Below, piece by piece: positions 13,186-13,549 of a stretch of DNA of 42,927 bases. The position numbers were made by a program, and so were the translations under genes. The stretch comes from Pedobacter sp. (lineage in GTDB: Bacteria; Bacteroidota; Bacteroidia; Sphingobacteriales; Sphingobacteriaceae). Within the stretch, counting starts at the first letter, position 1. Each line of letters begins with the position of its first letter. The notes beneath the pieces are model-generated. The model saw only the letters and a list, made by a program, of their open reading frames with translations, was not told the origin of the DNA and ran no database searches. The stretch lies in NCBI GenBank assembly GCA_004210715.1, contig SEDB01000001.1, forward strand, positions 1 to 42,927, in the 5' to 3' direction.

Positions 13186-13298
13186 TGATTTATAAAGAAG
13201 TGGCGAGAGACTGGCTCAATGACCCACTGGCAACCCTCAGAAAGAGAAGGTGCCAATTCCTGACCGAGTAACATGGTGTTATTTGGAGATATAAATTA
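13186..13298 (+). ncRNA. SAM-I (S-box) riboswitch
   Basis: The core motifs of the SAM-I aptamer appear in order: AGAGACTGGCTCAATGACC, ACTGGCAACC, then GGTGCCAATTCCTG. The closing P1 helix is visible: ATTTATA (13188-13194) is an exact complement of TATAAAT (13290-13296). S-box RNAs bind S-adenosylmethionine and turn off methionine genes, in line with metY, metX and hom downstream. The P1 3' strand ends only 7 bases before the ATG of a small ORF, so SAM binding could hide that start. No intrinsic terminator with a U run directly follows the aptamer. Assignment to SAM-I rather than a variant S-box class is likely, not certain. Confidence 0.88.
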
Positions 13299-13303
13299 AA
13301 AAG

Positions 13304-13426
13304 ATGAAAACATTAAATCTTCAATCGCAAAGCGAACCCAGCGTAAACAAAGTAGAAAACTCATCTATTTCTTTCATTTGTTATGATATGCAGGCGATTA
13401 CTTGTATGTGCTGTTGCATACGGTAA
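13304..13426 (+). CDS. Putative Cys-rich leader peptide (40 aa)
   Basis: An ATG 7 bases after the riboswitch P1 helix opens a 40-codon frame that ends ITCMCCCIR-stop. Five Cys codons occur, four of them within codons 34-38 (TGT ATG TGC TGT TGC). Length, place between a riboswitch and the metY ATG (123 bases downstream of its stop), and the codon cluster at the end are what one expects of a ribosome-stalling leader. A hairpin, GTATGT/GCATAC (13404-13421), covers these same codons. Three more inverted repeats lie between the stop and metY. There is no sequence homology evidence; it could be a chance ORF, though the Cys cluster makes that less likely. Confidence 0.5.
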   Translation: MKTLNLQSQSEPSVNKVENSSISFICYDMQAITCMCCCIR

Positions 13427-13435
13427 TTTAAAAAA

Positions 13436-13507
13436 CTTCCTTTTTTGTTTCTTTTCAAACTGGAAGGTCTCGATCAATCGAGATACGTCACTATAGGTTT
13501 AACCTAT
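13436..13507 (+). promoter_or_regulatory. Serial hairpins in the metY leader
   Basis: Three inverted repeats follow the leader ORF: CTTCC (13436-13440) with GGAAG (13462-13466); TCTCGAT (13468-13474) with ATCGAGA (13477-13483); ATAGGTT (13493-13499) with AACCTAT (13501-13507). None is followed by a U run, so they look like translation-level or anti-structure elements rather than plain terminators. Confidence 0.4.
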
Positions 13508-13549
13508 CCATTTGAATAATCAAATTGCATACCATTTAAAACTAAAATA

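Follow-up and report, generated by a model that had tools for sequence, protein, structure and literature searches.

In our study, the window (the whole stretch of DNA that was analysed, 42,927 nucleotides of contig SEDB01000001.1 of Pedobacter sp.) was found to contain a SAM-I (S-box) riboswitch aptamer, a short leader open reading frame (uORF) and the metY gene, all on the forward strand. The aptamer was found from nucleotide 13187–13297 and matched the complete RF00162 model (model positions 1–108) with 74.8 bits (E 7.1e-16), above the gathering score of 44.4 bits (Infernal). The preliminary description had correctly put a SAM-I aptamer ahead of metY and had let it end at 13296, whereas Infernal gives 13297. 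From the family match, the aptamer is expected to bind SAM and to change expression. No other Rfam family was found in 13160–13600 at E ≤ 5. The metY gene (13550–14881) encodes an O-acetylhomoserine/O-acetylserine sulfhydrylase of 443 amino acids (TIGR01326, 670 bits; NCBIfam cut-off 495.1), assigned to the OAH/OAS sulfhydrylase/cysteine synthase subfamily. The closest named MetY proteins were those of Pedobacter, with P. terrae at 91% (92% over the tree columns). metY was followed by a metX gene (14916–15974), homoserine O-acetyltransferase-like, whose best NCBIfam match, TIGR01392, reached 343 bits and so lay under the cut-off of 500, and by a homoserine dehydrogenase gene (16172–17416; NF004976, 324.6 bits, cut-off 205). 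A rho gene was also encoded.

The leader ORF was found from nucleotide 13304–13426, with 6 bases between the end of the aptamer and its ATG, and translates to MKTLNLQSQSEPSVNKVENSSISFICYDMQAITCMCCCIR, a peptide of 40 amino acids ending with AITCMCCCIR, in which the CMCCC cluster occupies codons 34–38. The coordinates described previously for a Cys-ended ORF of 40 codons between the aptamer and the metY ATG at 13550 were confirmed. When the 252-base leader (13298–13549) was shuffled with its dinucleotides kept, an ATG-started ORF with at least 4 Cys in 10 residues arose in 3 of 5000 shuffles. None of the leader peptides tried had a Pfam or NCBIfam match, and a known protein family was rejected for them.

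The MetY of the window contained no Cys and one internal Met. The homoserine dehydrogenase was sulfur-poor like MetY (1 Cys and 1 internal Met in 414 amino acids), and the metX product contained 4 Cys and 17 internal Met. A Cys-free MetY was found in 70 of the 72 leader-bearing loci and also in 24 of 36 loci listed without a leader, so that it does not mark the leader specifically; three of those 36 (L077, L136, and L225) were later seen to contain a Cys ORF. A sulfur-poor MetY fits synthesis during shortage of Cys and Met. The Cys-free protein is frequent in loci devoid of the leader too, and so argues for the condition and not for the device.

Conservation of the Leader ORF

Orthologues of the leader peptide (40-residue query, E ≤ 2.2e-6) were found in 24 of 99 genomes, all within the 60 genomes of the same genus (that of the window included), and all 24 copies adjoined a SAM core and metY. 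Eighty named metY loci were fetched; a SAM-core motif was present upstream in 71 and an Rfam SAM match in two more, which gives 73 loci. A SAM box with a small ORF near the aptamer, containing at least 2 Cys in its last 12 codons, was present in 71 of these 73, the exceptions being L119 and L137 (0 or 1 Cys). When only those named loci were counted in which a motif defined the SAM core and the searched stretch contained an ATG, the last 12 residues included 2 or more Cys in 69 of 70. The SAM box was absent in five scanned named metY loci (L103, L124, L125, L127, and L129), and L118 and L126, devoid of the SAM-core motif, stood outside the Rfam scan and hence outside the 73. Where several ATGs were present 38–72 nt past the SAM core of a named locus, the ORF with at least 2 Cys was given preference. 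When the first ATG was taken regardless, 18 of 20 loci had it 2–15 nt after the aptamer and at the head of an ORF containing 2 or more Cys, the failures being L282 and L119; a 21st locus with SAM box and metY, L295 (= L190), was outside this set and contained no Cys ORF. At these 18 loci, as in the window, the uORF start is so near to the aptamer that binding of the ligand could block initiation.

The leader peptides ranged from 25 to 52 residues. Little beyond the cluster was common to peptides of different genera, the bodies varying freely, although the first residues MKTLNLQS were alike within one group of leader ORFs. The cluster was found as ICMCCCIQ in Pedobacter, CICMCCCC in Mucilaginibacter, and ACCCCC in Hymenobacter. 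The alignment of related loci that had been proposed from the window alone was thus carried out: Pedobacter, Mucilaginibacter, and further families retain the ORF together with its position, its frame, and the Cys cluster, and the peptide body differs.

In L137 (Sphingobacterium composti) and its relative L275, the SAM box before metY was kept, the leader ORFs ended with RMR and contained 0 or 2 Cys, and a block GAATGCG.TAGTCGTCGGTAT was common to both. These leaders may perhaps carry a different sensor. L137 was excluded from the TGY frame counts, the Met/Cys window averages, and the terminator counts. In L077, a Cobalamin riboswitch (2236–2434, minus strand, 110 bits) was found near the SAM-metY leader, on the opposite strand.

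Codon-Level Conservation of the Cys Run

In 70 ORFs, the TGY codons were distributed over the three frames as 362:131:69, the ORF frame being given first, and in the last 15 codons as 346:116:26. The longest Cys run was found in 22 TGT/TGC spellings over the 70 ORFs, runs of three and runs of four accounting for 6 spellings each. In eight Mucilaginibacter-group ORFs of equal length, the dN/dS was 0.69 in codons 2–12, 0.97 in codons 13–29, and 0.30 in the last 7 codons. No contrast was found in Pedobacter, where nine ORFs of 42 codons gave 0.60 and 0.62 in the body and 0.60 in the cluster, and nine ORFs of 27 codons gave 0.42 in the body and 0.51 in the cluster; the DNA of the Pedobacter cluster is itself held by a hairpin (H1, below). 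Judged from the codons, the Cys run is kept as an amino acid run and not only as DNA, the dN/dS of Pedobacter showing no distinction. A short ORF with a conserved run of codons for one amino acid, ahead of a gene of the same pathway, is one of the marks of a Cys attenuator and is present here.

Hairpins Downstream of the Aptamer

Three hairpins, all on the forward strand, were examined in an alignment of 22 of the 35 Pedobacter-type leaders. H1 (13396–13427) is formed by the Cys codons and the stop codon, and its folding is therefore incompatible with a ribosome that occupies the cluster. Its core helix was paired in 94.7% of the cells of the 22 sequences; of its six pairs, one was changed on both sides, two on one side, and three were invariant. 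H2 (13436–13466, CTTCC/GGAAG) was paired in 100% of the cells of the 22 sequences, with four of five pairs invariant, so that covariation hardly tests it. It started 8–10 nt past the leader stop codon in 31 of the 35 leaders, about where a terminating ribosome would end. H3 (13467–13484), beside H2 and ending with a conserved TAC(G), was likewise paired in 100% of the cells of the 22 sequences, with changes on both sides in four of six pairs. Over H1–H3 together, 98.1% of the cells paired in the 22 sequences, compared with 36–48% in slid controls and 92.1% in partner shuffles. The covariation score was 0.260 against 0.143, and none of 500 shuffles was as high either in this score or in the share of paired cells; the number of pairs changed on both sides (5) was reached by 101 of 500 shuffles and so is not above chance.

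The preliminary description had seen three more hairpins between the leader ORF and metY. H2 and H3 are kept in the genus and H1 lies on the Cys codons themselves, whereas two hairpins in the fold of the window (13493–13507 and 13510–13525) were not seen in the aligned relatives. Besides H1–H3, no further element kept in the genus was seen between the leader ORF and metY. An H1-type hairpin was not seen in the alignment of the Mucilaginibacter group, where the Cys codons are kept with synonymous changes. A conserved hairpin masking the metY start was not seen either, the 3′ part of the leader varying among relatives.

H1–H3 were rejected as a known RNA family, with Rfam at E ≤ 5 giving only SAM, and H2–H3 were rejected as a general leader module of Pedobacter: the pattern CTTCC..GGAAGGYCY matched the metY copy in nine of nine genomes and occurred nine times elsewhere, compared with 12 times for the reversed pattern. 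A classical 1:2/2:3 switch was rejected in Pedobacter, where none of 32 of the 35 leaders gave a z below −1 for competition between H2 and the Cys codons. Such a switch found weak support in the Mucilaginibacter group: 13 of 21 leaders gave a z below −1, and the Cys codons there are similar to the 3′ arm of H2 and might pair with the 5′ arm. No intrinsic terminator was found in 13100–13560, and the SAM-I aptamer of the window is accordingly devoid of a terminator platform there. Between the uORF end and metY, a terminator-like site was found in none of 70 SAM-bearing leaders (3.0 expected from shuffles). The metY start was found 55–119 nt beyond H2.

Specificity for metY Among SAM Boxes

The comparison covered 116 SAM boxes, sampled at the level of the genus, the class, and the phylum; 80 of them were fetched and 36 were loci from earlier searches. 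To count as a Cys ORF, a reading frame had to start within 30 nt of the aptamer, span no more than 60 codons, and carry 3 or more Cys among its last 12. By this rule, the Cys ORF was found in 3 of the 28 SAM boxes before metY and in none of the 88 not classed as metY. When the codon limit was raised to 80 or 120, L022, a box ahead of a TonB-receptor-type gene, was the only one of these 88 to gain a Cys ORF, of 71 codons with CCC and a start 6 nt past the aptamer, and we regard it as a borderline case. Among the 25 metY SAM boxes without a Cys ORF, 15 were outside the class, and 18 had less than 200 nt from aptamer to metY. The genes behind the other SAM boxes, named mostly by their first residues, were metH-, metX-, homoserine dehydrogenase-, cystathionine-synthase-, cysteine desulfurase-, and TonB-receptor-like. 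Within the 88, metY follows as a later gene in L238, and L001 is truncated by a contig end.

The TonB-receptor SAM boxes L015, L022, L025, and L171 carried another kind of ORF with 3 or more Cys, which lay further downstream or was fused. In the same genus as the window, TonB-receptor SAM boxes (for example L004, 1501–1929, and L014) contained a second small ORF, e.g. MKKTDELKSI..FRMRTPC followed by the stop. Such second ORFs were mostly found 103–132 nt past the aptamer, showed synonymous changes, and often contained Met and Cys at the end; an in-frame CGA-ATG was present in 20 of 22 own-genus TonB-receptor SAM-box loci. The gene of L004 carries the TonB-receptor Plug domain.

Class-Wide Spread and Leaders Without a SAM Box

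In an even sample of 149 genomes of the class, a MetY match at E ≤ 1e-100 was found in 32, and 29 loci besides that of the window were examined. A SAM box with a Cys ORF was present in 12 of these 29 loci (families f1, f2, f15, f39, f40, f44, and f69); among the 12, the Cys ORF of L282 was not that of the first ATG. Seven loci (f3, f11, and f41) contained no SAM box but a leader ORF rich in Met and Cys, with clusters such as HCMCMCCMCM and MMMCCKMPMC. A SAM box with a Cys-poor ORF or none was found in four loci (L275, L277, L278, and L295), and neither a SAM box nor such an ORF in six (L289, L291, L292, and L296–L298), of which L292, with an uncertain start, was outside the SAM scan. L298 contained an ORF with CTCC near the end, which was matched by 74 of 300 shuffles and left uncounted. 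The distance from the end of the Met and Cys ORF to metY was about 90 nt in f3 and 325–345 nt in f11 and f41. In L274, L280, and L283, the unit of SAM box and ORF lay roughly 600–700 nt upstream of metY, with another ORF between when judged by eye.

The best 12-residue window contained on average 1.7 Met and 4.7 Cys in the 70 SAM-bearing ORFs, compared with 4.1 Met and 3.9 Cys in the seven SAM-less ORFs (Mann-Whitney p 3e-5, uncorrected for kinship or for the choice of ORF). The seven ORFs were chosen by eye, and selection by rule returned the same seven; the cluster of each was reached by none of 300 shuffles of its upstream 450 bases. A terminator-like hairpin was found between the ORF and metY in four of the seven (0.4 expected), a layout that fits amino-acid attenuation. 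Where no aptamer senses SAM, the Met codons appear to do its work, and this exchange is regarded as the best support for a tRNA-sensing leader. In a MetY tree of 90 rows, which included 49 of the 80 named loci and in which the order at several forks is uncertain and some long branches join each other, the state with SAM box and Cys ORF was found in early branches of the class clade of 70 rows; this state requires 9 changes in all, and the state with Met and Cys 3.

In three f3 loci (L285, L288, and L290), two Met/Cys-containing leader ORFs were found in tandem upstream of metY, each followed by a hairpin with a T run when judged by eye; the terminator scan listed only the second, of L285. These double leaders are apparently tandem attenuators.

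Discussion

We propose that the leader of metY is a two-input sulfur RNA, in which the riboswitch acts on the leader peptide and not on the gene, and we assign a probability of about 0.6 to this reading. The conserved ORF is, with high probability, translated and Cys-sensing. It is fairly probable that SAM gates the start of the leader ORF: binding of SAM would stabilise P1, keep the ribosome off the leader ORF, and leave metY off, whereas at low SAM the leader ORF would be translated. For Flavobacterium johnsoniae, the available text of PMC6847099 describes initiation as being adjusted by structure surrounding the start codon; with only a few bases between P1 and the ATG, the helix should therefore hinder initiation. 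That low Cys turns metY on is likely. With charged Cys-tRNA plentiful, the ribosome would reach the stop codon and leave; with Cys-tRNA scarce, it would stall on the Cys codons, block H1, and favour transcription into metY. Full expression of metY would thus require low SAM together with low Cys-tRNA. The output is the weakest step. Because no terminator-like site was found and metY starts at the stated distance beyond H2, we suggest, as a guess that is somewhat doubtful, Rho-dependent termination, from which the stalled ribosome would protect the leader. We see an even chance that the RNA works as an AND gate, in which the riboswitch decides on ribosome loading and metY therefore answers to Cys-tRNA at low SAM only; over the class, the methionine half would be interchangeable (SAM aptamer in some families, Met codons of the leader peptide in others), and the Cys half would be kept.

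The same parts could work with the opposite sign. MetY competes with cysteine synthase for sulfide, and a ribosome stalled at low Cys-tRNA might cause mRNA cleavage or a transcription block, lowering metY so that sulfide is saved for making cysteine when cysteine is short. In its favour, the leaders showed neither a terminator nor a masked start site that stalling would relieve. We consider it unlikely, as MetY has the composition expected of a protein made under shortage of Cys and Met, the four SAM-less relatives that combine a leader with a terminator-like hairpin have the layout of classical starvation induction, and this MetY subfamily may itself make cysteine. It is also improbable that the riboswitch and the leader ORF are independent, the aptamer having another expression platform and the closeness coming from a compact leader. 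Such independence would agree with the SAM boxes that stand before metH-, metX-, cysteine desulfurase-like, and other genes without an adjoining ORF of this kind, and with the distance being the only ground for a SAM-dependent block. Yet the start lies 2–15 nt from the aptamer at 18 of 20 loci, in families with differing peptide bodies, no genus-kept element besides H1–H3 was seen between ORF and metY, and the ORF body is too variable between genera for one conserved anti-P1 pairing.

Met/Cys clusters can bind soft metals, and a nascent peptide rich in both might sense a metal or a thiol-reactive compound instead of charged tRNA. Copper sensing by a nascent exported protein has been published (PMC9973294, available text). 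For the metY leaders we hold this to be very improbable: the gene context is a sulfhydrylase with a SAM sensor, the spacing and order of Cys vary (CCC, CCCC, CMCCC, and CICMCCCC) unlike those of a fixed metal site, and the SAM-less leaders are richer in Met codons, as expected for the sensing of two amino acids. Hardly any weight is left for the ORF being a small functional protein or the by-product of a structured RNA. The hairpin of the Pedobacter cluster and the MKTLNLQS start shared within one group would suit these, but lengths of 25–52 codons, a body dN/dS of 0.42–0.97 in three groups, the lack of Pfam or NCBIfam matches among the peptides tried, and the Mucilaginibacter-group Cys codons, kept with synonymous changes and no such hairpin in the alignment, argue against them.

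Several sensors are combined in the Salmonella mgtA/mgtL and mgtCBR leaders, including a leader ORF rich in Pro codons; unlike here, the signals are Mg2+, ATP, and proline, and neither a SAM aptamer nor sulfur genes are involved. In the clostridial ubiG operon, SAM (through an S-box antisense RNA) and Cys-tRNA (through a Cys T-box) both control one sulfur operon, but the SAM riboswitch lies on the antisense RNA and Cys-tRNA is read by the T-box and not by a ribosome. The S-box antisense is treated in PMC2258182, as far as its available text goes. The following comparisons likewise refer to the available parts of the sources. Polycysteine leader ORFs precede mycobacterial cys operons (Canestrari et al., 2020, cited in PMC9094748 and PMC13236596; predicted in PMC1262725). 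As here, these are short ORFs with a Cys run near the stop, sulfur genes, and no obvious intrinsic terminator, and Rho was also suggested for them (PMC1262725); unlike here, they belong to Actinobacteria, are leaderless (according to the 2020 title), have other target genes, and have no riboswitch in front. In Mycobacterium tuberculosis, Mbox-pe20 (PMC12810186) and B12-ppe2/metE (PMC11260477) place a riboswitch beside a uORF whose translation matters, and Mbox-pe20 uses Rho-dependent termination, the output guessed here (PMC12810186); ligands and phylum differ, and no amino-acid-sensing codon run is reported in those parts. uORFC-8-2, before cysS of Rhodobacterales (PMC8632094), is a short uORF with tandem Cys codons and proposed ribosome-mediated attenuation, but it has a terminator stem with a U run, precedes another gene, and comes with no mention of a riboswitch in that text. 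Within Bacteroidota, leader peptides have been proposed ahead of amino-acid operons of Flavobacterium psychrophilum (PMC9723704), where the available text mentions neither a Cys leader nor a combination with SAM. Going by these partial texts, the two kinds of part, Cys leader peptides (PMC1262725, PMC8632094) and riboswitch-controlled uORFs (PMC11260477, PMC12810186), are known separately, and their serial combination would be the new part. Among the best-ranked open-licence literature matches, in the text available, no SAM-I riboswitch followed by a Cys leader ORF was described; a review of tandem riboswitches contained neither leader peptide nor uORF, and a 2007 survey of riboswitch mechanisms did not contain the term leader peptide.

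If the two-input reading is true, a riboswitch uses an amino-acid leader peptide as its expression platform, and a metabolite and a charged tRNA are sensed in series. The arrangement is conserved over several Bacteroidota families and, one borderline case apart, was not found beside the other SAM boxes examined. It would suggest a reason for direct sulfhydrylation, the sulfide-consuming step, being under cysteine as well as methionine control. The swap between SAM aptamer and Met codons would offer a natural exchange for testing the logic of both sensors, and the leader would be a concrete case in which to ask how Bacteroidota achieve attenuation when both an intrinsic terminator and a Shine-Dalgarno sequence are absent.

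A further observation concerns the SAM riboswitch classes. A 2007 survey listed no species with both SAM-I and SAM-II (PMC2258182, available text). In our study, SAM-II and SAM-I matches were found in L294 (549–655, minus strand, and 3885–3992, plus strand) and in L295 (978–1080, minus strand, and 1251–1375, plus strand), the SAM-II scores being marginal (49.2 and 44.8 bits, cut-off 44), with both classes present within one 4.3-kb locus.
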